From contig OX485805.1 in assembly GCA_950295325.1 (NCBI GenBank), forward strand, positions 3,904,501-3,968,500: a stretch of 64,000 nt of DNA, read 5' to 3'. The notes beneath the pieces were generated by a model. The model ran no database searches. It was not told the origin of the DNA and saw nothing but the letters and a program-made list of their open reading frames with translations. Shown here one piece after another: positions 10,601 through 31,161 of the stretch. The DNA is from Polytrichum commune. Its lineage: Eukaryota; Streptophyta; Polytrichopsida; Polytrichales; Polytrichaceae. Every line of letters starts with the position of its first letter. Position 1 is the stretch's first letter. Made by a program: the position numbers and the translations under genes.

Positions 10601-13247
10601 TGGCCTGTATATCTGATTGCGGAACTGGCCACCTTGATGATGATGCCATCAAGTGCATCATCCAGGTATAGACCAAACTCAATATAAAAATCCCATGTTT
10701 CTCACAAGCTTATTTGTTTCTGGAATCTTAGCAAAACTTGCATACTTGTGCTTTGAGTCTGAGATTACATCATCACATACTTCCCAGAATATTACAAGCA
10801 TCTCTGCAAATGTCAATTTGAAAACATTTCACGAAACCATAAACGCACATGAATGTCAGCTTTTCATGCGATATTTTGCATTTCCTGAATTGGGGCTGCA
10901 CATGCAATTCGAGTCTCTATCAAGTCCTGCTTTGTTTGGTAATTATGTCAACACAACTTTCAGCACAGATGGTGCATCCCGGGGGAGCAACATGCGCTTC
11001 ATAATAAGGAATTTATTTTGGTTTATTATGCTGTTAGTTTATTATAAGTTGTCAGAGCTTATTTTGCCAATGACCCTGCTTATTATACAGGTTTTGTAAA
11101 TTACTACCCTGGGTTTTGGCATTTCCTGAACGGACGTTGGCTGCATCACTGCACATGCCTTTATGGATGTTTTCCACAAATATTTTCAGACGTGTTGTAA
11201 TAAGCGTTGGAAATGAATGTTGTACCTATCTTGCAATGTCATGCATACCTTTCCGTTGCAAAATTGGCATAGAGAACACTGTATTCTTATATTTCCTAAT
11301 GTGCGACAGTAGTAGCGGACCTTCATCAGGTGAATCCTTGTCAGTTTGGGGATATTGAGCACATTCTCCACCACATTAAGTTAACTCTTCAAGTCATGGA
11401 TTGCTGGAATTGTGCCAGTTCACGCAATAACTTCCACACTTGGTCTTTGAGTCTCAGATTATTTCATCACAGGTCCACATCTCAAGGTTACACAGTTCCT
11501 GAAATCTTGCAAGCATCTCTGCACATGTCATTCTGCAAACATTTCACCAACTCTTCATCACACAAATGTCACTCTTCCTTTCAATGGTTCGCAATTTCTA
11601 ATTTGTGGCCACACATGCATTGCAAGTCTCGCTCACTTGTTTTGCTCAGGAAATTATTTCAATACAACCTGCATCATTCACTATGGGAATCACGGTTCCT
11701 TTCAACTAGTTCTCTCCCCAATAGATGGGTTTGAAATCTATGAAAATGGGAAGGGAAATCCACTATTGTTGTAGACCATAAAACTATACAGTGGAAGAGA
11801 ACCACTGGTAAGGAACCGGGATTCTTGTAGTGATTACAAAATGATGCACATCTTGAACTTTGCAACATCATTGCACAATTGTTATACTAACACGTTCTAC
11901 CCATGCCGTCTCGGCTTGTTGCACATGTGGTCTCCCCCACTGGAGATGATCCATTGCCTTTTTGAAACAATGAGCCATGGTTGGGAGCAGTACAACAACA
12001 TGCTCGATGTCTGTGCACGACTTCCATTATAGACAGATGTTACATTTGGAGAATTTAGATCACTTTGGGATCATCATCCATTTAAGATCTATTTGGAATA
12101 TAGCCATGTTTGGGGTGTTTCATATGGACCCTTGCCATCCTTGCATGTTGCACCTATGCATCTAAAGTAATGTCCTAGGCCATCTCCAGACCGTCTGCTC
12201 AACATGCCACCGTTGACTGCTGACCGTTTTTGGAATGGCAAGACGATGGCCTCACCACCACCACCATGTTGTCCCTTGTATATAGATTGAGCAGTGTCAC
12301 ATTGTCCAACAACAACTATCACAAAAAATGATCACGTTTTTGTCCCTATCGCAAATTCAGATCCACAAACCACATTATGCAATGGGATGATTTGGTGTTG
12401 TTGCGTGTGCAACAATTGGCTTGCTATTGTCTTTATAAATGCTTTGTTCAACACATTGCCATCAGACAAATGCTTACAATGAGCACTTCCTCCGCCACTT
12501 AGTAAAGGGCTACAAGTTCAGCTGCCAGCCAGCAGGCAACTAGTGGTATGGACAAAATTTGAGCCAGCTCTTTCACTATCCTTACTTCTTTATTATCAAT
12601 TGGTTGATCCTTCATTACTAGATTGCTTGGGTTATTTCTCATAGTTTTACTGCAATTCAAAAACTTGATGAAACACGGTTCCGTGAATTGCCTACAGTGT
12701 TTATTTGAAATCTACAAATGCGGAAATTAAATGGAACTGTTTCATGTATAACTAGCTGTCATGACCCCGAGTTGTGGGTCAATCCCTAATTCCAGTTCAA
12801 TCCGTTATTGTTTGTTCGGCAACCTTGTTTGTTCATCCCATTTGGAGTGCCATGCGGCATGGCTCAGCTTGTTGTTAGGTCATCTGCACTTTGTGCGGGT
12901 TGCTATAAATCTCTTTGCCGTGAGGATGGTATCGAGGTAAGTACGCTGGATACAACGAAGAAATTTAACATAGTGAAGCTATGGCAAGCTATGGATGATC
13001 TGCATTTAGATTCCTGATTTTTGAGCTTCCTTTGGAGTGCATGCAGGTTCAGAGTCAAATGAATAGCAATGTCATCTGGTATCGTAGTTCGAACTTGACT
13101 GTTGCACAATAACTTACGAATATCTCTGGCTTACTCTGAAGCAGGCGATCTGCAACGAATATTTGACAATCAAAGATGTAAAAATGGACTGGAAGTGCTT
13201 GAATACTCGAGAATCCCAAGGATGTGTCAGACAGGATACCGTAACCA
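7699..13247. other. Intergenic with old duplications, no intact gene
   Basis: No gene could be supported. At 10740-10930 and 11430-11640 the same text recurs in diverged form (tttgagtctNagatta, caagcatctctgca-atgtca, aaacatttcac), an ancient tandem duplication about 690 bp apart. At 8390-8530 there is a copy of a family that also occurs near 35880, 37970 and 51660 (words tatataggtgaa, tggtatca). A short open stretch at 12808-12950 with CxxC spacing ends at a good GTAAGT donor and could be an exon relic, but I cannot assign it. Confidence 0.4.
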
Positions 13248-13261
13248 TCTATATAGAGGGT
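13248..13261. repeat. Candidate left end of Crypton-like element (palindromic 14-mer)
   Basis: TCTATATAGAGGGT occurs here and again at 31204-31217. With flanks both sites resemble the palindrome ACCCTCTATATAGAGGGT. Outward of the site the text is GTAACCa; the right site read on the other strand gives GTAACCc, so the similarity extends in inverted orientation. It lies about 315 bp beyond the recombinase stop codon. A palindromic arm-spacer-arm plan suits a tyrosine-recombinase crossover site, but the assignment is inference. Confidence 0.45.
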
Positions 13262-15175
13262 CTCGCTGACGTGGTTGCCTTCTATTGGCTCACGAGCATG
13301 GTAGAAAATAATCCATAACCTACCATCTCTATTTTTGGCGCCATATATTCAAATTTCAAATTTCAAATTCAAATTCAATCAGAATTTTGTACCCACCAAA
13401 ATTTTTGAAAATTTACTTCAAGTTTATGAATGTTTCAATTCAGTACAGGAACGAATCATTTGCTTCAATTGTGAGCTCCAATTGCTTCACAAGAATGACA
13501 ACTAAACTAAAATTTTGATGCTAATTCAATTACATCAAAACAAACTATGTACAAATGGCAACAAAAAACTATACACTAGTGGCCCTCTTTTCCTTTGAAA
13601 AACATCTTCAATTCAAATGGATCATGGACATGGAAGTGGAAGACGTTATTAGAAATATGTCCACTAAAAACAGGACCATGTGCATGATTCGGCATTGATC
13701 CAAACTGCGGCACAACACCTCCACAACTTGTTTCACGTTGTTCTTGAACATTTGGAGACTGAATCATAGTACCCGAACTAGTCACAGTCGTAAGCACTTC
13801 TGGAACCGCACTAGGAGGAGTGACAATAATCCCAGGTGTAGCAAATCCGCTTGATTCAACAACCACAGCCTTCATCGAACAATCAGGGCTATTAGGCCAA
13901 TCGTAATCATCAACAGAACAACCATTGCTCGAACTTCCTCCCTCCTGTGCAGAAATAAAGATCCCATTTGATTGACTCCTTTGTGTCACTTTCGGTGAAA
14001 CAAATGAAGTTCTGACAGAAGGGCTCATAGTTATTGTTGGAAAAGCAAGAGTATGTGCAGGTCGAACTGGAACATCAGAAGGCACCAAACTATTGTTCAT
14101 GAATCTAGCTTCAAATGGATTTGAAGAAGATGTATGAATGGATTCGATATCTTGTTGACCAATAACTGGAGTATGAAATTGACCCCCATAATCTCGGAAT
14201 GGACCTCGAGCTAGAGTACCAAAAGGAGGAATTCCATGAGGTTGAGTTGATTCAACCACATGCCGAATTGGAACAGAAGGCCAAATTGGAGGGGCCAGAT
14301 GAACAGGAATCACAGGCTGTGAATTTCGGTTTTGTTGATTAAACAACTCATAGTAAGGATTTCCCTCTAGATGATTTTTTCCTTGAATAGCAAGGGCAGG
14401 TTGTGGAACAATAGAAGGGATTCTTGCACCAACCTCTTTATGATGCCAACCATGTAGTTGTTGCTGGTAATGAAACCGGTAATCCAATGGAGCACCGGTG
14501 GCAGGATCATATGGAGATCTTATCAGTGATTGAGCTGCTCTTGCCTTCATTGCAGCGCTTTTATCATATCTGGCAAGCGTTTTTTCATTCCGGTGCCCTG
14601 TAATACTAGTAATCACATCATAAGGAACTTGAGCAGCACACATTCTGCTGATTGAAGTAACTCTTCCAGATTTGTTGGTAATATCACCATCAATTCCAAC
14701 GTTCTTTGCCATTTTTTTCATCCAATTCCTCATGTGGCCCTGACCAACATTGATACCTCGTTTAAACCACACATTAGACCGGCTGCTATGAATTGCAGAG
14801 AGAAATAAGTGGCCATCCTCACTTCCAGGAGGCATATGCTCATTCAGAACTCTCCATGTGTTTATGACATCCACATCATGAGAATATACAGCAGGACGAA
14901 AATGTTCATCCTGATATCGTTTCAAAGACACTTTATATGTTTTGCTAGTGCGTTCGTCATACCTGCAAGCCAAGATAACATGTTATTATCACATCCTACA
15001 GTAACCAAAATACACAAAAAATTTGAAAAGAATAATAACAATAACTTAATAATCCTTCAACAAGAGACTGTGTACACAGAATTATAAGGAAGAAAACTTA
15101 CTTCAAGTATGTGAAACCCCGCTCATCTGTTCCGAGCTCAAAGTCCTTTAGCAACAAGTTGTACAATTCTGTATT

Positions 15176-15180
15176 GCCCC
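15176..15180. repeat. 5-bp target duplication (GCCCC) of solo LTR, left copy
   Basis: GCCCC precedes the TGTGAG start of the LTR and recurs right after its CTCACA end at 16948-16952. Removing one copy and the LTR restores the recombinase reading frame, which independently confirms the boundary. Confidence 0.93.
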
Positions 15181-16947
15181 TGTGAGGCCAAACCCCCCAC
15201 CCTTAAGCGTCCGTAGTCCGAGTAGTGGGTTTGGGCTCACATTCCTCCGCGGTATTGGATTTGGATTTGGATGAGTCCATAGTGCAAGGTTCACCCTTCA
15301 AGTGGTCTTGGATTTAACTTTGGTCTTTGCTTCCTTTGTCTTGCCATCGCGAGAGTGCTCCACATTCTCCATTAAGTTGTGCACGTGGTTTATTTTTAAA
15401 GAGAGGATGCAAGTGTTAAAAAAAACACTATTCTCTATAGTCAATCTCAAATACATTTACTTGTGAAAGCCACACATAACACTAACTAGCATAATGTAAC
15501 TAACTACTTGTCTATGAGCTAATTAGGTAGGCTATCTACTAAGCTCCTTCATGAACCCATCTCTTTACTTTCTAATTACATAAACCTAGCTCCTTCATAA
15601 ACCCAGCTCCTTCATAAACCCAGCTTCTTAGCTTCTAACTAAACAAACCCAGCTCCTTCATGAACCCAGCTCCTTAGCTTCTAACTAAACAAACCCAGCT
15701 CCTTCATAAACCCAGCTCCTTCATGAACCCACAACTTTGTAGTTGTAATCCCCAACTACCTCACTAATTATTCAAGCCCTTAACTAATCTTCCTACCTAA
15801 TTTCCCTAATTCTACTAACAACCCCTTTCTAATCACACAATTCTTCTCTAATCCTAAAATCCTAAAATCCTAGAGAGGAGAGGGGGAGAGAGAATTTCCT
15901 AACTTCACTAAGACTAACTAATCCACACAAGTATATTTTTGCACTCATCACAACATCAAGTGCTCAACTCTTAAACATGGAACTTGCAACCACGTGTATT
16001 CAAAACATGAACTTAAAGTACCACAAATTGGAATCATGAATTAACTTTAAAATCCTTCACGTCAACACTAATTCTACCAAGAGGTCAAACCCTCTTCAAG
16101 GCTAACAAGCCTTGGCTCTCAAACTAAAAACTAAGCACACACATGTGCTCCAATATGGCTTCCCACACCCACACTTATAACTCGTGGGGTGCCTTGGAGC
16201 ACAAAGGAAAGAGAGGATGAGTGAGGGAAGAATAAGGGATTATATAGTAAGCTTGAGGGGGTGAGCACCCTCAAGGCTCACGATAAGCCCTTGAGATTTC
16301 CTCCTACTTAGTAGGCGCCAATCCTATCTTCTAAGCCTTCCTCCCTCAAATGATCAACAAGGATCCTAATTCGAACATTTAACTAGCCTTGGCTTTCTAC
16401 CTACCACACTTTACCAAACTTGGGATGCTTCAACCCAAACTTAGCCTCCTTCGCTTTCCGCCGCCATAACTTTCTCCCCTTACTTTTCCAAATCGTCGCT
16501 CACCACTTAATTCAAACCACGATGCTTAACTCGTGATTTGATTGGTGCTTTGAGAATTTGCTTATCCTCCACCTTGCATTCTTCCTTGGGCCTTCCCCAT
16601 TAAGTGGCCATGATGAGGTGGTCCACTTGTGCGCTCCATGTGATCCTCCATTCATCCCAATTCGAATGCACTTGCCTCTTGAGTCACTTTGGTTGTCTCC
16701 ATCCATTTGTACTAGCCTACTCACTAACTACTCAATCCAAGTTCTCCTTACCTATCCTCATTCACTCAAATCCTTCCGAAGGTAAAAACACAATAACAAC
16801 TCACATCCTAGCCTCTTACAACATGGTACTTCTAAGACTAACATTTCACTCTTTTTATATTTTTGTGAAGTAACATGCTACTTCAAAGTGCATCAACTAA
16901 CGTTTCAAGGGTCTAAGACTAAATGTGGGCACCCTTTTAGGCTCACA
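15181..16947. mobile_element. Solo LTR, 1767 bp, inserted in the recombinase exon
   Basis: The element starts TGTGAGGCC and ends GGCTCACA, the TG...CA plan of LTRs, and is bounded by GCCCC on both sides. There is no gag or pol coding, primer-binding site with a second LTR, or internal domain, so it is most simply a solo LTR left by recombination between two LTRs. It contains a minisatellite of aacccagctccttcat units (about 15586-15732). Orientation cannot be told. A large non-coding LTR-less insertion is an alternative, but the terminal dinucleotides and 5-bp duplication argue for an LTR. Confidence 0.85.
15586..15732. repeat. Minisatellite inside the solo LTR
   Basis: About six to seven tandem units of the type acccagctccttcataa, some separated by a ttagcttctaactaaacaa spacer, itself present twice. 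Such arrays are common in the U3 part of plant LTRs. Confidence 0.85.
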
Positions 16948-16952
16948 GCCCC
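16948..16952. repeat. 5-bp target duplication (GCCCC) of solo LTR, right copy
   Basis: Follows the CTCACA end of the LTR and matches the left copy at 15176-15180. Confidence 0.93.
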
Positions 16953-18279
16953 TTATGAGAAACACTACAAAACAGTAATATGCGAATCGCATGTGGACAC
17001 CATCAGGATAGTTGGCTTGGTGAAGTGGATGCGATAAGATCTTGATTTCATCTTCATAAGATAACGCATCTACTTTACGGCGATCCTTATTAACCCCCGA
17101 GTTTCGGCTCAATTCCATTGCCCGCAGTACAGCTCGTCCGGCTCCAAGAAACCAGGGATGAGATTGAATGCAGAATTGAGGTTCAACAATACCAGTCTCA
17201 ATGATACGTCTCTTCTGCTCCATGATAAGAATTCTATTGAACCCCATGAAGAAATTCATAATTGATGCTGTTGGATAGCGTTCACCAGAATTCTTACACA
17301 ACATCAAGAAAAACTTCACAAGTTCCTCACCAAATGTTTTCAGCGGTATTTTCTCAATTTCAACGGTGTGATCAAGTTTCATGTGTTTCCGCCATTTTCG
17401 AAACTTATTACGTGCCCAATTGTCGTTCTTATACGATGGATTATGAATCTCTGAAAGCAGATTATCCCATTCCTGTTCAGCGTCTCCTTCTGCAATAAAA
17501 GTGCTTGGAGGTTCATCTTCATTTTCGTCAACCACATTATCCTCAACACCCTGGGGAATGATAGATGGACCCCAAGAGATGGCCATAGGTGGTTCTTGAA
17601 TTTCAAAATTCAATTGACGGGGCACTACATAATCCTTATTAATCGTGCTAGAAGTATTCTCTGGATCTGGATTAGCCAGGGAAACATCACCTAAGACACG
17701 ACGAACATTTCGGGCTCTCTTTCGAAGCGAGCAGAGAGAAGGAGATCTGTCACCAACAAGTTGAGGAACACTTCCTTGTGTATTGAGTTCAGGAATGTTG
17801 AGCGCAAACATATCCTCCACGTTCTCATTGGCACAAGGCAGGCTAGCTCTAAACTTTCCACGAGCAGATCTGGCTCTCTGTGGCATGATTCTTGAAAATT
17901 AAATGAAATCCACTAAAACGCTTGCAATCGAACTCAAACTCCAACAAACTAGCAGGAAACTATGAATCAAACCTACCACAGAGACCTACTTGAATTACAC
18001 CGGAATAGCAATAGTATGTGAAACACGATCTTGTGAACAAACATCCTACAAACTTGCCACCAGATTTATCATCACCTCATGTTAACCCTTCTCTCTTAAC
18101 CCCCTTGAAGATGGTCAGCCATCTTCACCACCCGTACACATTCAGGGACCGCTTGGCCGTTACGCTCCGGGGTCGTCCATTGCCTCACACAATTCAAGAA
18201 TCCCATGCTTCCAAAAACCTCCACCCCTGAACCCGCCATCACCCTTAACAACATAGAAAGAAGAAAGAATAGAGAAGAG

Positions 18280-18330
18280 CAGAATTGTGAACCTTCCACG
18301 ACCAGATCTGCCTCTTCGTGGCATGTTTTG
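18280..18330 (-). pseudogene. Duplicated 5' end of the recombinase gene
   Basis: The minus strand reads MPRRGRSGRGRF beginning at about 18323, closely matching the start of the recombinase (MPQRARSARGKF at 17886), and the similarity continues for some bases upstream of both ATGs. After the shared words the frame has no recognisable continuation. It is best seen as a partial duplication of the 5' end, or an alternative first exon; no splice link to the body was found. Confidence 0.6.
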
Positions 18331-18391
18331 TGAAGATGAAACAAAATCGAGTAAACCACCTACAAACTGATCACAAACTCCACTGATATGT

Positions 18392-18764
18392 CCTCCACTG
18401 ATCGATGATATGAAACTTCCCTTCTCCACACAAACAACAGCAATCAATCTGGTTTCCAAGATGGACGCGAACCGATTCGTCCGTCGGAGCAACTTAACAC
18501 CGGATCTCTAAACAAATGGTTACCTACTTCGTTACCCTCAGACCTTCCTCCTCGCCGCACTTAGCAAACACATGAAACCCTCGGACTTAACAAACACATG
18601 AAACCCTCCACTGATCGATGATATGAAACTTCCCTTCTCCACACAAACAGCAGCAACCAATCTGGTTTCCAAGATGGACACGAACCGATCTGTCCGTCGG
18701 AGCAACTTAACACTGGATCTCTAAAGAAATGGTTACCTACTTCGTTACCCTCAGACCTTCCTCC
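18392..18764. repeat. 213-bp tandem duplication, second copy interrupted by the MULE
   Basis: Copy 1 begins at 18392 and copy 2 at 18605 with the same words (cctccactgatcgatg, caatctggtttccaagatgg, cgtccgtcggagcaac). Copy 2 runs to the MULE at 18765 and resumes at 31162, continuing tcgccgcacttag until about 31190. Copy 1 is uninterrupted at the matching point near 18556, so it is a natural empty site for the MULE insertion. Confidence 0.92.
18756..18764. repeat. 9-bp target duplication of MULE, left copy
   Basis: CCTTCCTCC borders the left inverted repeat and is repeated at 31162-31170. A 9-bp duplication is typical of Mutator-like elements. Confidence 0.95.
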
Positions 18765-18819
18765 GGCAGACGATATGGTACCCCCTACGAGCTTTTGTAG
18801 GGGGTACCTGACATGTCAG
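18765..18819 (+). repeat. MULE left terminal inverted repeat
   Basis: Starts GGCAGACGATATGGTACC. It pairs with 31107-31161 at 51 of 55 positions. Bases 18777-18808 also form a perfect 12-bp hairpin (ggtaccccctac with gtagggggtacc, 8-base loop). Confidence 0.95.
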
Positions 18820-20184
18820 GGTCAGCCCGGATGGAGCTGCCCGAGATAACCGGCGCGACCGGTAAGGGTGACCGGTTCGGCAGGTGGATAGTGGATGAAG
18901 AACCTGGGGCTCCGACCCTCGTTCCGGAGGTTCTTCGAGGGTTGTCTTTTCAGGTGTACACTCAAGCTCATGTACTGTCACGTCTTTCAGGGTTGTCTGT
19001 TCTCTTGAGTGTACTGCACGAATCGAAATGATTGTGCAGATCCTTGTGGTGATGACGGCGATGAGGACAGATTTGGTGTTGTCATTGCGATTGGACTTCG
19101 CGGCGAATGATTTCATTGAGCAGTCACACATCAACAGCTAGGGTATGATTATGCTTGGATTTCGACTTCAATGAATGCGGTTCAGGTTCAATGAAACAAC
19201 TTTGATGCTTCAGTGCACAATCGTCTTGCTAATACTCTGTGATGTGGAGTCGCAGCTTGGATTTCCTACACATTTTGCGCAGTTGAGAGTGTTTGTGTGC
19301 ATTTACCCTAATATGCTTTTACTGAGTTTCGCTGTTTGAGTTTCGCTGCTCGAGGCTTTAGGGGGCTTCCGGGTGTTCCTTCGGAGGGCGGAGAGACAGC
19401 GGTTTAAGGGAGAGTCGAGGGGGGAGGAGAGGAGCGGCCTGCCTGAGATCTGTATTGTTTTTTTTTTCCAGGGTTTGGGTACTTTCGTGTTGGGAGGCAG
19501 GGGTTCGGCCGCAGCTTCTAAGCACTCTCTTGGTTGACGCGGCGCACGAGAGGACGAGGGAGGGAGTTGACATTCTGATCCTTGCAGGTGCTTGATATTC
19601 TTGGGTAATACATGGGGTTTAGGTAAATTTGTCAGCATAGGAGATACAAGCGGCTCAGAATTCTTCGATTAGGTACAGGGATGCGAGAGTGGACCGGAAA
19701 GGATTGAAACTTCTGAGGTAAGCTTGCGTACATTTGTGACTTAGTAGCAGTTTGCATTCGGCAGATAGGATGATGTATTAGTTGAAGGTGTAAAAGTATT
19801 CTCTCTGTTCACATGTTTACCTTTTAGCTTATATCCAATTGTATGTACCACCATATTTTAAAGCGGATGAGAGTTGTGAACTGCAACTAGTGCAGACAGA
19901 CCAGACGGTAGACAATCCTATATAATCAAGGTGCCTACACAATAAAAAGTAAGACAACCACATTAAACAGCAACACGCGGAAGACTCCCAAGACAACCGC
20001 ACACCCGAGTAATTGAATAGTCATCCAAAATTCATATAGAACAACTTATGAAATGTCTGCCCAAAATAAAATGTCATCCTGGAATTAACCCTTTGCAAGG
20101 ATCCAATCCACTTTGATGCTCTCAGTAAAACAACCATAAATGTATCCGCAGCCTATAATGCACCATCAATCGCATATTATCATT
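18820..20184. promoter_or_regulatory. MULE left subterminal region, no coding recognised
   Basis: No conserved protein words. A perfect inverted pair GTACACTCAAG / CTTGAGTGTAC lies at about 18956 and 19004. A GAG|GTAAGC donor at about 19721 may end a 5' untranslated exon of the protease gene, because the coding start at 21990 follows a good acceptor. Subterminal parts of MULEs commonly act as promoters; that role here is inference. Confidence 0.4.
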
Positions 20185-21977: not shown

Positions 21978-24900
21978 ATTTCTTGCAATATGACATCCAA
22001 AGGCGTTGCTGAGGTTTCATGGACGACTGCAACACTTGTTCCTGAAGCGCTGGGTTTAGGCTTTCATGCCTTGGAGGACGATGACATGATCAAGTGGCTG
22101 GGAAGAGACACTTTTGTGGACACCTGCATCAATGGTACTCCAGGGTGGCAAGACAAGGTAAGGCATTGTGTTCAAGTTTATAATCATGTTATTCAGTTAT
22201 AGAAGTGCTTCTTGGTTTAGGGCCCATGTCCTTCATTGTATAGTTGTTTAGGGTTTAAGATGATGATTCATTTCATGTCCTTCAATGTTTTCCTGTTGAT
22301 TTCCAAGTCCTTCAATTGCTTCTTGATTACCAACCATGTCCTTCAAATAGTGGTGTCCTGCTTTTGGGTTTAGGGTTAATTTCATGTCCAGCAATGCATA
22401 CATGTGTATTTCCATGTCCTACAGCTCCAAATAATGACAGGAGTCATGTTTTTTGCAGCTGCGTGGTGGAGAGGATAGGAAGTCGCGCATCTTCCGAAGC
22501 ACTATGACGCATAACCGGAAACAATGCGTCGCTCTTTATTTGGAGGAAGAGTATGAGCAACTCGTACTTGAATGTTATTGGACAGCCCGTTCAAAGGAGA
22601 AGATGCCAAACAACAGGTATAGATTCTCCTGCATCCATTGTAAAGAGTCTCACAAAGATAAGAATACTACTTCTTACCACAGGATGTTCAAGCTTTGTAA
22701 CGTGTACAAAGGCACGACGGCATTGAAGATGTATCCGACTTGGGACAAGAGCGAACAAGGCGAGAAACAGAGGATTGGTACCAAATATGGAAAACGCGGC
22801 TCACCTCGGGTGTCCACCGCTCCACCTCCATCCAGGCGGCCGCATCCTTTCAACCTCGATGGAGAGGCAGCCTCAACGGAGTGTGGTGATGCAGTTTCAG
22901 CAGCTGAGACTTCACCGCCACACAAATCGCGCCTCCAACCGGTGCGGCCTTCGAAGAAGCGCAACCTTACATCCCCGACCGTTGATCAACGTCCTCCGCC
23001 TCCACGTACACACACCGCCCTTCCACTCGACAAACATGAAGTCCCTGCACCCAAGAAATGTAAGAACGGTAGCAACTCGCGAGTGTCATTTGAAGAACAC
23101 CATCCCCGGGTGAGTTCTCCTAGCGAGTCACTCTCCCCCACTGCAGACACTGCTCCAGATTCACCCGATGTCGAATTTAGGATTGTAAGACATTCTGCTG
23201 ATGTTGAAGTTCTTCGGGCACCGCCGATTACCAGGCAGGATATTGAACGCTTGGCATGGGCCGAGGCCGCTCACCTTTTTCGTCCAGCCGATGTAATTCC
23301 ATGTCCTCCACCTCATGTGGAGGACAATGGATTATACATCCTAATTGCAGAGACAGATGATCAGTGGGCACCTAAGGAGCTTCTAAAGGACCCTGATGCA
23401 TGCATGCAATACTTGCATGCGCAATTGGAGGACGGTACGATTGGCCAGCATATTGGAAATGCCTTTGGCCAATGGTACCTTTATGGCAACTCAACAGTAT
23501 GTCCTTCACCTCCTTATTCGCTGTTCTTCATTTGTTTTTATGTACTTCAGAGTGGACTTTATGCATAACATGCCTTGGAACTCAAGTGAATTCATATTTC
23601 ATTGAAGTACATTTTAGCTGTTATCATTGACATATGGTGCTAATGTCTTCTCGGCAGATTACGCGCACGGCTGAAGAACACAATGCTCTTCGGGACACCA
23701 TCAAATCGCAGGTCCGTTGTTTCAAGTGTAATTCCGATGTCCAAAGGTACGAGGAACTAAAAAACCTTAAGGACTACTTGCATTACCGCATTGCGTACAC
23801 AGCGTACGAGGGCCAAATTGCATCCGCTGTTCTTACCGTGGACGAACTGCGCAAGAAGCACGTCGATGCCGAGCTATTGAAATTTGATATGGCTGAGAGA
23901 CAGCGACGCGAGGCAGAGAAGTGGCATTGGTCCCCTCTTTTTCAGATTTTTAAGAAGTGGCCGCTTCCAAATTTTCCTGCCGCTCCTTGGGAGCATAAAG
24001 AGGTTGAATGGGTTGAGATGTCTGCGGTTCTCTTGGAGAATACAAAATCTGACCCGTTGTCCCTTGAGACGGAGTGTCCTCATATCTTGAGAGCTTTACT
24101 GTCTTTGGTTAGGACACTTGAAGGCTACAAACGCCCACTTGCTCATCCCAGCAAGGGATTGCACTTGCAGTATATACTTGATATTGCGCATAGGAAGGAC
24201 TACTCTGTTGCTTTATCTATGATTGTGCAGGGTCTACCGCATACGGGCTGGCTTGCATTCCCTGGTATCTATGGTGCAGTGGATACTTTTAGCGAACTAC
24301 ATGCGGACATTGTTGCTCTTCTTGGCTATGACCATTCCAATCAAGTCGCTGTGGTGGAGAAAATTGAAGCGTTCGTAGGGAGGATGGCACACAGGTCAGT
24401 TGCCGATATGGTGCGAATGCATCGTGAGGAGCAACTTGCACAAATGTGGTACAAGGCCGACACAACCGAGCAGGAAAGGGAAAAATGCGAAGAGGTAGGT
24501 TCTTGTCATTTGCAATATGTATGCTATTTGAGTGCCAATATTTTCTATTCTGCAACTAAGTTCTGTAACCATGGCTTGATCTTGGTTTTTTTGAAGTAAT
24601 ATTATGCAATTGGTGTTAGTAACTTCAGCTTAAACTCTGATTTGGATGTCCTTCAACTATGTCATTCGCGTCCTTCAACCAATGCTTATAAATTCATGTT
24701 CTGCGCCCTAATAGTAAGTCCTTGTCATGCAGGTTCTATGTTCTTCGTTCATTTTCCGTGAAGATGTAGATATTGGTTCAGCTATAGTTGGCGACCTCTA
24801 CAAAAAGAGCAGGTGCTTAGAGCTGCGCGTTCAGGAGGAGCAAGAAGGACTCATCAGTTTGAGAAGGATGCAACTGCAACTTTTGTTTTGTGGGTTGGGT

Positions 24901-26513
24901 CTAGAGGAGCCGACTAATGACATTGCACCAGATGTAGCTTATGTTCGGTCCTTGATAGGCGAGCTACCTGCATTACCTTCAAGTGGATTTGGACTCGTGG
25001 CTGAAGTACAAGCCGCCATAAGTTTGGATAGTCTGGATAGTATCCCTATGCCATCGCAACGGTCGCTTGAAGGACTTGAAGGAATCAGCACTCAGGATTT
25101 GGCTTTGTCTCAATTCAACAGTACTCAATGCTCACCAAACAGGATTGTTTTGCCGCCACCTGAATTGTCCCAGCACGAGAGTCTTTGCAACATGCATTCC
25201 AAGAATCCACGCTCGCCAAGGACACTTTCCGAAGGACCAGGTCCGTGGTTCTCGAGAGCTTTCTCAGTCGACAACAACAGAGATGGTGTAGAGTCCAAGG
25301 GTGACGAGGGGGCAGCCACCAAGACTGAAGTTGCTTTGGAGGCTGTACAACATGAAGTTGGAACGCATGACATCGCAAATGTGCGTCCAACTGCTTTGGA
25401 CGTGTCTCTGGATGATGTATTGGCAACAACAACTCTCAAGCCTGATGGACGGTAAGTGTTTTCATTGTTGTCATTCGTTGTGCACTTATGTCATTCGCTG
25501 CCACTTGTGTCATTCGCTGCCATTTATGTTTAGGGGTTGATCCATTGACTTCTGTAATGCAGGTTGGAACAACTTGTGAATACGATCTGCACAGAAGCAG
25601 GTGGGACCATGGTGAACAGTTTCGACTTTTTGTACCGCGGTGACTATTTGAGTTTAAGCTGGGTGGGCGATGTGTTGCCCTTAACAAAAACATATGGAGA
25701 ATTATCCAACCATATGATGGATTGGATAAGAGCATGGCTTAATCCACAGATTGAGGACGTAAAAACCTATGTATGCAGTCCTTATTTGGTTAGTCTGCTT
25801 AAATCGCATGTCCGTAACAAGAAAGATAGTGTAGAGGTCTATATAGACTTTTTGCATGTCAAGTACACCGCACTTCCAGGTTCGGACGTAAGAACACTAA
25901 TAGTGCCCTATACATGTGGTAAGCACTGGAGTGTATATGTGCTAGGGGATAGGGGTTTTTTTCATATTGACTCCATGCCAGGGTATGGTCTCCACTCCGA
26001 TGTGACTATTCGCACATCGCTTGCCAAGATGTGGACCGTAAGGAGTGGCAGTGTGCAGGCACAGTCTTCACATGTCCATAGATGGATAGAACCATCTGTC
26101 CCCAAGCAAAACTCGGGTTGGGCATGTGGTTTTTATGTCTTGAGGAACATCATGGAGTTTATCGAAGCTCTGAGACATAGACCACGTTCATTGGGTGAGG
26201 TTAGTGATGACACTGCACAATTAGGTGTTTAGATGACACTGAATGACATCAATTTTAATTTTAAGTTGATGTTCTTCACGGCCAAGATTGATGAGGGATG
26301 GTTTTGATGCAGGAATTTAAGCTGAATTACACTAGAAGCTATGCAATACAGACAAGGAACATCGTTTCGGAAGCGCTGGTGGCTGTCATTCAGGCTGGTT
26401 TTAGAGAGGAGACTGCATGGAACATGAAGGTTGTAATGGCCCAAGAAGATGACCCGTCTACGAGTGGAAAACAACAGAGTAGACGAAGCTGTAGAATGAA
26501 GAAGAAGTTCTAG
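21978..26513 (+). CDS. MULE-encoded Ulp1-like (C48) cysteine protease, six coding exons
   Basis: A SUMO-protease-type peptidase carried by the transposon; its target is unknown. Coding exons: 21990-22157, 22459-23496, 23658-24494, 24733-25451, 25563-26199 and 26313-26513. All junctions are GT-AG and in phase, giving about 1199 residues. The ATG at 21990 follows a TGCAG acceptor ending at 21977, so a 5' leader intron is likely. Exon 2 holds a CxxC-x12-H-x5-C cluster (C114, C117, H130, C136) that resembles a BED-type zinc finger, then a Pro/Ser-rich linker. Exon 3 is helical and charged. Exon 5 holds the protease core: H1042 in KHWSVYVL, D1056 in FHIDSMPG, Q1103 and C1109 in QNSGWACGFYVLRN, which is the full His-Asp-Gln-Cys set with the usual Q-x5-C spacing. 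The C-terminus is basic. The gene converges on the transposase with a 646-bp gap. Intact frames suggest selection or youth. Confidence 0.9.
22158..22458 (+). other. Intron 1 of protease gene with repeated TGTCCTTCA words
   Basis: The 301-bp intron holds TGTCCTTCA or close variants five or more times (about 22227, 22276, 22307, 22337 and 22419). The same word recurs in the other non-coding parts of the MULE in the sense orientation of the nearest gene. Confidence 0.8.
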
Positions 26514-27159: not shown

Positions 27160-30100
27160 CTATGTAATATGCACTGATTTTTTACGCCTTCGCGACGACA
27201 TCTCCAAGAAACTTTGATGCCGTTTGAGAGAATTGTCGCCCATCCTTTCAGGAAAAGAACTCGTCATGGGAGAGAATTCCATTTTGGCGACCCCCCTCGC
27301 AATCAGCTGGGTTTGCTTACCTCGTATATGCCTCAAGTCTGCAAGTAAGTAATCTTGGAGCGCTGGATACTCGTCGACTGTCCTCGTCAAGTCAATGTAT
27401 ATGTCATGCGCCTTGGTTTTAGGCCCAGGCTGTGATAGCCGCTCTTGTGATAGGTCGATTGGATTTTTGGCCTCTCCCAATGGTATATTGGTGATCATGT
27501 CATTAGAATTGTGAGAGTCAATGACAATTGGGTCTGCAGGCCCACCTGAGATGTGTCCTTCATCGTCGCGAATATGTAATATATTGTCATGTAAGTCTGC
27601 GTCGAGAGGAATTGGCTTCTGAGTTGGCCTTGCGAAGCACTGCGACAAGGGAGTTGCACGGTCAATGCCATGTTTGGTGCCTGCTTCACGAAAAATGACG
27701 CCATCCTCAACATCCGGGTGCAGCATTTTGAAGACCTTCACAGTATGTTTGCATATCATGCCCTCTTTTGCGATGGGACAATCACATTGGGCCCACTCGG
27801 AGTCCGGAGAATGAATGGTCCAGACTTTGGGTCGGTTGTTAATGGATCCAACATAAGCAACATCTTCATCCGGGCAAATGAGGACGTTTGTATCAGGTAT
27901 GGCATTGGCCCTGATTATTGCTGTTACGACAATACCTTCTTGCTTTGTGTTGCGTATGAATCCAAACGCCTTGCACTGCACACCATACCAGTAGTGTGTA
28001 AGAACATCTCCCATTAGGTGATAGATTAGCCAATCCATGCGCCTTCCCACAAACCTCTCCTTTGAAGAATTGAGAATATTTTTCAAATTGGAGTGGTATG
28101 ATTCAATGGCAGCGTTTGTGTTTTGGCCAGCATGTGGAATGCGTCGTGCTGTAGCACACCACATTGTTGTTTTGGATCTCCAAGTGTCATTCATGTACTT
28201 CATGAATGCTACAGCCCGCGGTCTGGTGTTCGTTATTGTATCAAGTTGTCGGACAGCCCAATCGACTGGGTCTTCATCAACCTTGCACCCCCTACCATAC
28301 ATTATGTCTCCAAGCATCTGAAGAACAGTGGCCCTCTCAGCAACTGCAGAAATCTTCTTCACTGCATTCTCAGCCCAAGACTTGCGGACGTGCCATAGAC
28401 ACAGAAATATTTTGGCCTCTGACCATATGATGCTGTACAAGAACAACAGTAGTTTAAAACAACAGGTTCGTATAATTGTGCATGAAAGACATATATGGGA
28501 CAATGAATATCAAAGAAAGTGAGGCAAGACCATGAATACCTCAAAGTATTGATTTCTGCCTGGGCATTGTCGACAACGATCGAAGAAGGTGCCCAATCTC
28601 GCTTGAGTGTGTGAACTCTATTTTGAAGTGCTTCAAGAACAGGGTGCAAATCTTGTTCGCGAGTGCGGGATATGACAAAGAATGCCACAGGTATGCCATT
28701 TCTCCACTCATCAAATACCATGATTGTGTACAGCGGATACTGGAATACGACAATGTGTGGATTATATAAACTAGAAGGTTTGTAATGACTACTGCGAATT
28801 TTGAATAGACAAAACACTGAATGAATAACCTTGAAGGACACGGAATTGGAAGTATAAGAACCATGAAGAACACTGAATGACATGAAAATTCAAAGGACAC
28901 TGAGATATGGCTTACCCTAGTTTGGCTTGTCCCAAATGTAGAATCAATAGAGAAGGCACTATTGTGTCCAAATTTCACCATCATCTCCAACTGCCACCCA
29001 GATTGGACAGCAAGAGTGAAAGGGGAGTCGTTTTGCACTTGTGAATTAATGTCCAACAAGGAATGCTCTTGATAATAGAACACATTTTCAGGGTTTTCCA
29101 TAACCCACATTCGCACGCTTATAGGGTCGGACGGGAGTTTCTCCCAAAGCTCCTCCGCTCGCTTTCGACAAATGTTTCTCACATCAACCGGCAACAAGAA
29201 TGTATCGCGGGTGACAACACCATTAGAAAGGGCCAACTCTCGTACTTCCTTTGTGTGTTGTTGCATGATCTGAGCAGGAGAAAGTCCTAACGCATGCATT
29301 TGAGTTATTTTCTGCTTCAATTCTTCTGAAAGTCCAGCGCCTAGTGCATACCTAGTCCCACTAACCATTGTGCCATGGCAGAGCTCTCCGTGGAGATTCA
29401 AATGTTCGGTGTTCTCATATATCAACACACATAAAGCACCATCGAGGTACGGCTGTTTTGCCACAAAGGCCCGTTGACACCCTCGCTTGATGGAATTTCC
29501 AGCCATGGTTTTCCCAATACGCTTCACCATTGCTACAGATGTTTTGTTCACAGGAAATGAATCATACTCAGGTACAACCTTCTTTCCTCGTTTTTTCTTC
29601 TGTGTATGGATGTTCTTCTTCCTTTTTGTCTGTGTGTATTTCAGCAGCATTTGCATGTCCTGCGGGACAATTCCTGTCTTGTCTTCAGGACCAAAGTTAC
29701 ATCTGTACCTGCTAGGCCGCATGAAGAGGATGATGCAATGCATGAGTGGTGTATACTTTGTACAATCCTGGGTGAGTATTAATCATATTTGTAGTATAGA
29801 TGGTGTTCAATGAAATCTGGGTGATATTTGAAAATCAATTAAGAATCACAAAACAGTCTAAGGAAGGACATTGTGGAATGATTGACATATTATGAATTGC
29901 TTACATATCGAAGGTGATTGTTAATCATGTATGTAGTATAGATGGTGGTGAATGAAATTTGGGTGACATTTGAATATCAATTCAGAATAACAAAGCATTA
30001 TAGGGAAGGACATTGTGAAAAGAAATAGATATTATGCATTGAGTACCTGTGTTTACAGATGTGAACCCTAAATGCTGGGAAGACCTACTTCCTGTGTAGT

Positions 30101-30527: not shown

Positions 30528-31106
30528 TGGAGAAGGTTGATCACTTACAAATCATATGTGCAGATGAGGTGTGCAGATGATAAATGAACCTGCTGATAAA
30601 GGCTGAACCCTAAACTATGTAGACATGAATATCTGCATCACTTGTATTGCTGCCACTCTATGTGTGTATGAGCAAAACCTAAACTCAACATGTTTATGCT
30701 GGTTGAGAGTTGGGTGTGATTCAGAAAGTTCAGCAAGCATCAGAATGCTAAACATGCATGAGGAGTTAGAGGATCAAGCATCATAATGAAAGTGAATGTG
30801 GTGGGTTCTAACAAACCACCCTATCAATCCACAGAGCACATCACAGACATCATAGACATCACAACGTAGTAACCCAAAAAGACACGAAAGAGCACACTGG
30901 CTCCATATGATCCAGATCTCAGATCCGGAAAACCCGGAAGGACATGATCTGAAGTAATGACATGATCCGGAATGACATGACTGGAATGACATCATCTGAA
31001 TGACATGAACTGCCCATCTGTATGTCAATCGTGTTGCCGTCTTTCCGTCTATCGCATGGATGTAAATGGCTGACGTCACTGAACGGGCAGGGGCGCCGGG
31101 CAGCTT
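30528..31106. promoter_or_regulatory. MULE right subterminal region, probable transposase promoter
   Basis: Non-coding, between the transposase start and the right inverted repeat. At 30930-31010 it carries a cluster of GGAATGACATGA-type words spaced about 15 bases apart. The position suggests the transposase promoter and possibly transposase-binding repeats; this is inference. Confidence 0.45.
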
Positions 31107-31161
31107 CTGACCTGTCAGGGTCCCCCTACAAAAGCTCGTAGGGGGTACCATATTGTCTGCC
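31107..31161 (-). repeat. MULE right terminal inverted repeat
   Basis: Reads GGCAGACAATATGGTACC from the outside in and matches the left repeat at 51 of 55 positions. Its inner hairpin is imperfect because two of the four differences fall in one arm. Confidence 0.95.

Follow-up and report, generated by a model that had tools for sequence, protein, structure and literature searches.

To what kind of genetic element does a tyrosine recombinase (YR) gene of Polytrichum commune belong? The question is raised by a 64,000-nucleotide stretch of contig OX485805.1 (C3:3904501-3968500), called the window in the following, which carries a two-exon YR gene on its minus strand at 13576-17886. A sequence-only reading had proposed a DUF3504/Crypton-type recombinase of a kind not well characterised in land plants. 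In our best reading, the gene probably derives from a Crypton-like DNA transposon, a land-plant variant of the Crypton-type elements in which the YR is the sole protein detected. The window copy is a truncated fossil of this transposon, broken by an insertion resembling a long terminal repeat (LTR), and it belongs to one (F1) of at least four related families of YR elements in this genome.

The gene is made up of two open minus-strand stretches at 16897-17898 (333 aa) and 13576-14982 (468 aa). Counted from the presumed start ATG at 17886 (with a comparable one upstream, at 18324), the N-terminal part comprises 329 aa and the C-terminal part 468 aa, both open. FLIRG, YDERTSK, NKSGRVT, TGHRN and RYDK are present in YR order, LIRG near the end of the N-terminal part and the other four in the C-terminal part. 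The first part of exon 1 (16948-17886) includes the first catalytic Arg (of LIRG; 16953-16951), while its second part (15102-15180) opens with the second copy of a GGGGC duplication and reads GNTELYNLLLKDFELGTDERGFTYL, matching FLIRGNTKLYNLLLKDFELGTDERGFTYLK in L002. A predicted intron of 139 bp (GTAAGT..TTGCAG, 14963-15101), the only one seen, leads to exon 2 (13576-14962, including the stop codon), which contains RTSK, K-x-x-R, TGH and the Tyr, followed by a Pro/Ser-rich tail; the exon ends (..FLK / YDERTSK) are identical in a copy from family F2 (L004). By motif reading, the catalytic residues of exon 2 are Arg (14664-14662), His (14595-14593) and Tyr (14568-14566). The C-terminal piece yielded at least 28 matches in its own genome (best after self, E 1.3e-240) and the N-terminal part at least 36, with the YR motifs recurring in paralogues at 58% and ~48% identity, and we therefore do not regard the frame as a product of chance.

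The ~1.9-kb gap between the two open stretches is a 1,767-bp solo-LTR-like insertion plus the 139-bp intron, not one intron. The insert (minus strand, 15181-16947, TGTGAG..CTCACA) looks like a solo LTR, with the GGGGC target duplication beside it at 16948-16952 and 15176-15180, and its site is uninterrupted in two paralogues, where the joined 80-base flank aligns unbroken (78/80 in L017, 75/80 in L016). The 799-aa exon-joined frame of the sequence-only reading is incorrect in part, as what had been taken for its intron is mostly the LTR-like insertion. Since this insertion lies directly after the LIRG codons and the 5′ end is truncated, the window copy is unable to encode an intact protein.

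Among Pfam families, Phage_integrase was the only one matched by the window pieces at E ≤ 10 (C-terminal piece, E 6e-5, 23.3 bits against a gathering score of 27.1); the corresponding values were E 0.0018-0.003 for F2 and E 1.5e-4 to 4.4e-4 for F3. GCR1_C was matched neither by the window pieces at E ≤ 10 nor by the scanned pieces of the other families at E ≤ 1. A PDB search with the C-terminal window piece returned nothing meaningful, and the top match of a search with profile A2 was 'Integrase' 3nkh (E 0.023). No relative was among 20 pattern stretches in viral contigs, and Rfam gave 0 matches over the window. The tail of the window protein is of low complexity and its terminal motif is only loosely similar between families: the C-termini of F1, F2, F4 and L018 display a loosely similar stretch after a variable low-complexity tail, and an alignment of five C-terminal tails shows little that is fixed.

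That the host is a plant follows from the assembly itself, which contains a 146,561-bp contig (C8) with an open rbcL. The best PDB matches of this gene were 9chz (1073.6 bits) and then 4hhh (1056), which we take to be plant Rubisco large chains. The assembly amounts to 407.8 Mb in 64 contigs, with C1-C7 measuring 42-78 Mb. As the window lies on a 59-Mb contig of the same assembly, the plant-like genome of the sequence-only reading was borne out, and fungal contamination is made less likely.

Grouping by DNA and protein identity resolved four families. Three copies of F1 were found (the window; C2:14.66M; C4:18.20M). F2 comprises copies at C7:30.50M, C7:30.53M, C7:38.12M, C6:38.46M and C6:44.09M, whose protein is 57-58% identical to that of the window, and the partial copies L033, L034 and L065. 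Outside a duplicated block, the F2 copies are 96.9-98.8% identical in DNA over 3.6-5.0 kb; their ends are sharp and their flanks differ. F3 has two copies (C3:58.74M; C4:47.81M; 96.5% over 2.7 kb) and F4 four (C1:16.57M; C7:37.82M; C2:64.88M; C6:38.54M; 97.9-99.4%), three of them with both ends (3,171-3,199 bp) and one (L039) with a half-deleted terminal hairpin; L018, L019 and L020 are more distant. Some F2 loci showed further peculiarities. L009/L010 (C7:30.494M and 30.526M) lie in two copies, 32 kb apart and 99.96% identical, of a block that spans at least 10 kb and includes an F2 element, and in L065 (C1:28605800-28611799) the F2 copy is split by an insert with open reading frames (ORFs) that resemble, by eye, the endonuclease and reverse transcriptase of a long interspersed nuclear element (LINE). 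The region from the gene to the shared 3′ end differs greatly among the F2 sublineages L009, L012 and L013 (~0.75, 1.4 and 2.4 kb), with both ends conserved.

The YR catalytic motifs are kept in F1-F4, with K-x-x-R replacing H-x-x-R. Comparisons among F1, F2 and F3 gave a nonsynonymous divergence (dN) of 0.40-0.51 over 166-167 codons with saturated synonymous divergence (dS), indicating that selection has preserved the YR domain. For nine within-family pairs, dN/dS was 0.24-0.85 in six and 1.2 in one (with a frameshifted tail); two were not computable, one having 9 nonsynonymous and 0 synonymous changes and the other being out of frame. Pfam scans of the YR exons and of five ORFs out of the 20 listed 3′ of the F2 gene detected neither reverse transcriptase (RT) nor a DDE transposase, and the five ORFs were also free of RNase H. 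L035, a copy of F4, has no ORFs of at least 110 aa other than the two YR pieces.

All four families share an end architecture. Read along the gene direction, the element starts with GTAYTAG (GAACTAG in the F1 copy L016), followed by a hairpin of ~75-130 nt and an inner repeat, and its 3′ end, with the last bases ACG, is the reverse complement of that inner repeat. In F2, the inner repeat CGTAGCCGAT and the end ATCGGCTACG match at 10/10 bases (9/10 in L012). The inverted repeat extends to 23/23 bases in F3, the family in which shuffled sequences served as control for the end repeat (best of 500, 16), and to 20-21/22 bases in F4; in L016, CATAACCATCTGTTTAGAGGGTC and GACCCTCTAAACAAATGGTTACG agree at 21/23 by eye. 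When the hairpins were folded as DNA, those of F3 and F1 reached z -6.9 to -9.0 against shuffles, and four F2/F4 sequences reached z -13.5 to -16.5. The hairpin loops of F4 and L016 have AGCCYGTAGGGCRAGCC in common, which occurs 8 times in the genome compared with 0 for a reversed-pattern control. Joining the F3 ends, CCGGTTACG to GTATTAGGTAACC, creates inverted arms, GGTTAC/GTAACC (..GGTTACG then GTATTAGGTAACC), around an 8-bp spacer, and weaker versions are present in F1 and F2.

Against this background the decay of the window copy can be traced. The F1 remnant spans 13240-18764 on the minus strand, with homology to L016/L017 down to ~13240, and its 3′ terminal repeat GAGACCCTCTATATAGATGGTTACG (13240-13264) is homologous to the F1 3′ end in L016 (GAGACCCTCTAAACAAATGGTTACG). 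The 5′ terminal hairpin was not found in the window copy. A 160-bp piece of the 5′ region is duplicated within 18392-18764 (18392-18551 and 18605-18764, 96%), and likeness to L016 identifies a remnant of the inner 5′ repeat, GGTAACCATTTGTTTAGAG, at 18506-18524, with a second copy at 18719-18737; taken alone, this remnant is within the range of shuffled controls (16/25 vs a shuffle mean of 13.8, max 17). The DNA upstream of ~18764 is at least partly another repeat (18765-18830 vs 31096-31161, 88%).

The ends also occur apart from the gene. Eight genomic matches of the hairpin loop included five new loci (L067-L071), all of them F4 mini-elements of 255-266 bp in which the 5′ ~135 bp are joined to the 3′ ~118 bp, with five different flanks; they suggest that these ~135 + 118 bp are all that is needed in cis. 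Searching with the F4 5′ end returned 9 loci, namely the four YR copies (including L039) and the five mini-elements, and searching with the F2 5′ end returned 7, namely five YR copies, L065 (with its LINE-like insert) and a palindrome, L066. As far as these searches are sensitive, F2 or F4 ends are thus confined to these loci. L066 (C1:28596565-28596635) is a near-perfect palindrome of ~71 bp, consisting of the F2 hairpin arm and its mirror image, and the sequence to its right recurs, inverted, to the left of the F2 copy L065, ~9.3 kb away.

We scored the 16 insertions in which both ends could be placed, excluding the window copy (end followed by G) and L017 (decayed end); for L067, which lacks the last G, AAC was taken as the end. 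The base following the 3′ end was A/T in 16/16 (P ~5e-5 vs local background), as was the second base before the 5′ end (P ~5e-5, a figure that shared F2 element bases may weaken); the third base before the 5′ end was A/T in 14/16 and the first in 12/16. The target is thus roughly WWH|W, most often TAT|T. No target duplication of fixed length was present across the 16 insertions, and direct repeats of 3-6 bp were seen in 5/16 compared with 1.7 expected by shuffled pairing (P 0.013). When the 16 pairs of joined flanks were compared with the loci in hand, only that of L012 aligned across the junction; it matches two element-free window repeats at ~70%, too diverged to place the insertion point at base level.

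How do these elements relate to known Cryptons? Statements on the literature refer here to open-access passages of the cited papers. Crypton groups have been reported in fungi, animals, oomycetes and a diatom (PMC3212892). As in the CryptonF/S/A/I elements of Kojima and Jurka (2011), the YR is the sole recognisable transposition protein, copy number is low, and non-autonomous derivatives occur (PMC3212892). A YR-only DNA transposon in a plant genome is well supported by families of several copies that end sharply in different flanks, by mini-elements with internal deletions, by the lack of RT in the scanned ORFs and by the placement on a 59-Mb contig of an assembly that also includes rbcL. The claim that land-plant elements of this kind are poorly characterised agrees with the open-access literature found, where none of the titles listed announced a characterised land-plant Crypton: a review notes that Cryptons are not described in Arabidopsis (PMC7385966), and the passages of PMC3537659, PMC11630846, PMC8869645 and PMC10794571 describe no land-plant Crypton element. 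The claim has to be qualified, however, by two tables covering plants, one from a survey and placing Crypton among the superfamilies in all groups studied (PMC4438587) and the other, from a plant transposable element database, including a Crypton row (PMC8729191). Besides the host and the lack of matches to DUF3504 or to GCR1_C, a domain of CryptonF, our elements differ from published Cryptons in having K-x-x-R where the tetrad R-H-R-Y has His (PMC3212892). Known Cryptons have terminal direct repeats of 5-6 bp or none (PMC3212892, PMC8969392), and a 2022 curation guide names a short terminal direct repeat as the only distinguishing Crypton feature besides the coding sequence (PMC8969392). In our elements no such repeat, a conserved feature of CryptonF/S, was constant over the 16 insertions, and the 5′ GTAYTAG, hairpin and inner repeat are instead paired with a 3′ complement that ends in ACG. 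Since the passages of PMC3627910, PMC7385966 and PMC8969392 describe no hairpin or inverted-repeat ends for Cryptons, this architecture appears new relative to the Crypton ends described there.

Several observations weigh against a Crypton-like assignment. The end architecture departs from that of known Cryptons, as set out above. All Pfam Phage_integrase matches remain below the gathering score, that of the window piece included, and F4 has no such match, so that its YR label rests on likeness to F1-F3 and on the motifs. The profile search proposed for DUF3504 (PF12012) gave no match at E ≤ 10 for either window piece; the single PF12012 match in the genome (E 0.95, under the cut-off) is located elsewhere. 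The YR layout of the sequence-only reading, with LIRG, SGRVT, TGH and RYDK in YR order, is therefore retained without its DUF3504 label, and membership in DUF3504 or QRICH1 was rejected in the absence of a significant Pfam match. An AlphaFold2 model of the C-terminal window piece alone had a predicted local distance difference test score (pLDDT) of 32.5 and was not used. The nine within-family pairs give few indications of selection on recent copies, and several copies contain stops or frameshifts. Finally, F4 lacks symmetrical junction arms of the F3 kind, and the 3′ end of the window copy is followed by G rather than A/T.

The ends call to mind another class of elements. Helitron2-like rolling-circle elements could have captured the YR gene as a passenger and be moved by RepHel proteins in trans, a scenario that we consider unlikely. 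Helitron2/Helentron elements have asymmetric terminal inverted repeats, one beside a terminal hairpin, and usually no target-site duplication (PMC3627910, PMC5148889). Read in reverse, the ends of F1 (L016), F2, F3 and F4 indeed have a terminal repeat on the 5′ side and, on the 3′ side, a repeat immediately preceding a hairpin, an arrangement described for Helitron2 (PMC3627910), they read CTAGTAC/CTAATAC, recalling CTRR, and a fixed target-site duplication is absent here as well; the genome also has at least 34 Helitron_like_N matches. On the other hand, the hairpins of ~75-130 nt contrast with the mere 20-30 bp that separate the 3′ repeat of Helitron2 from the end, and the reported insertion at TT, TTTT|T/C or A|T (PMC3627910, PMC5148889) differs from our sites, where the insertion point is T|T in 7/16 and A|T in 2/16 (A|A and A|T when reversed) and the reversed elements start with CG, not T. 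The elements read showed no Rep/helicase; of the 34 RepHel matches listed, a lower bound, not one is closer than 250 kb to any of the 16 F2/F4 end loci (nearest pair ~258 kb apart, by eye); and the YR has the same orientation to the ends in all four families.

Descent of the YR from a DIRS/Ngaro retrotransposon that lost its reverse transcriptase appears highly improbable. DIRS elements also encode a YR and possess internal complementary regions, which the complementarity between the 3′ end and a sequence inside the 5′ end loosely recalls. Yet the scanned ORFs 3′ of the F2 gene contained neither RT nor RNase H, the L035 ORFs hold only the two YR pieces, and the families have spread recently in multiple copies. 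Scarcely any weight falls on the last alternative, that the window carries no transposon relic here but a host gene, domesticated in the way of ZMYM2 or QRICH1. Only three F1 copies were found, and PF25561 (the QRICH1 domain) weakly matches N-terminal exons of F2 (E 0.02, 0.1 and 0.22), but not the N-terminal window piece; furthermore, the LTR-like insertion splits the window copy, L002 and L003 contain stops, and F1 has transposon ends like F2-F4. The DUF3504 genes KCTD1, ZMYM2-4, QRICH1 and KIAA1958 share a YR-derived domain with our elements but have lost most catalytic residues (PMC3212892), whereas the catalytic motifs are kept here and PF12012 is not matched.

For a Crypton-like transposon, the simplest mechanism would have the YR act as transposase. 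It would bind the repeated arms at both element ends and excise the element, or copy it, as a circle; through strand exchange, the circle would then enter an AT-rich target (roughly WWH|W), the GTAYTAG start probably crossing over with the ACG end. YR sites consist of inverted arms around a spacer, and the F3 junction with its arms and 8-bp spacer would resemble such a classical site. In this recombination site, the hairpin at the terminus and the displaced inner repeat may be accessory or folded-strand parts, the hairpin serving either as an array of binding sites or as a folded single-strand substrate. The latter would parallel integrons, in which the tyrosine recombinase IntI recombines attC sites as single strands folded into a long imperfect hairpin. 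Our elements likewise associate a YR with a long imperfect hairpin that could act in this way; they differ in being eukaryotic and in having the hairpin at an element end instead of a cassette site. A signature of an attC-like mode would be the displaced inverted repeat by the hairpin, kept across families with ~25-30% identical proteins. We tentatively raise, as a rather doubtful possibility, that this is a eukaryotic YR transposon lineage recombining a folded hairpin end, with a single-stranded or hairpin-dependent Crypton mechanism.

Elsewhere in the window, ORFs at 22438-26232 (plus strand) and 27160-29782 (minus strand) end in a Ulp1/C48 peptidase (Pfam 1.1e-4, above the cut-off). Beside them lie ORFs that resemble a SWIM-type Mutator transposase by eye, with no Pfam match, and together they perhaps represent a ULP1-carrying Mutator-like element.

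If the assignment as Crypton-like transposons is true, a plant would harbour Cryptons that appear to be recent and have their catalytic motifs complete, and some 'Helitron-like' ends that lack RepHel would be explained. Should the attC-like reading hold as well, it would give Cryptons a single-stranded or hairpin-dependent mechanism. Four families in one plant, together with their mini-elements, would offer a substrate for testing how the ends of such elements are selected and joined.

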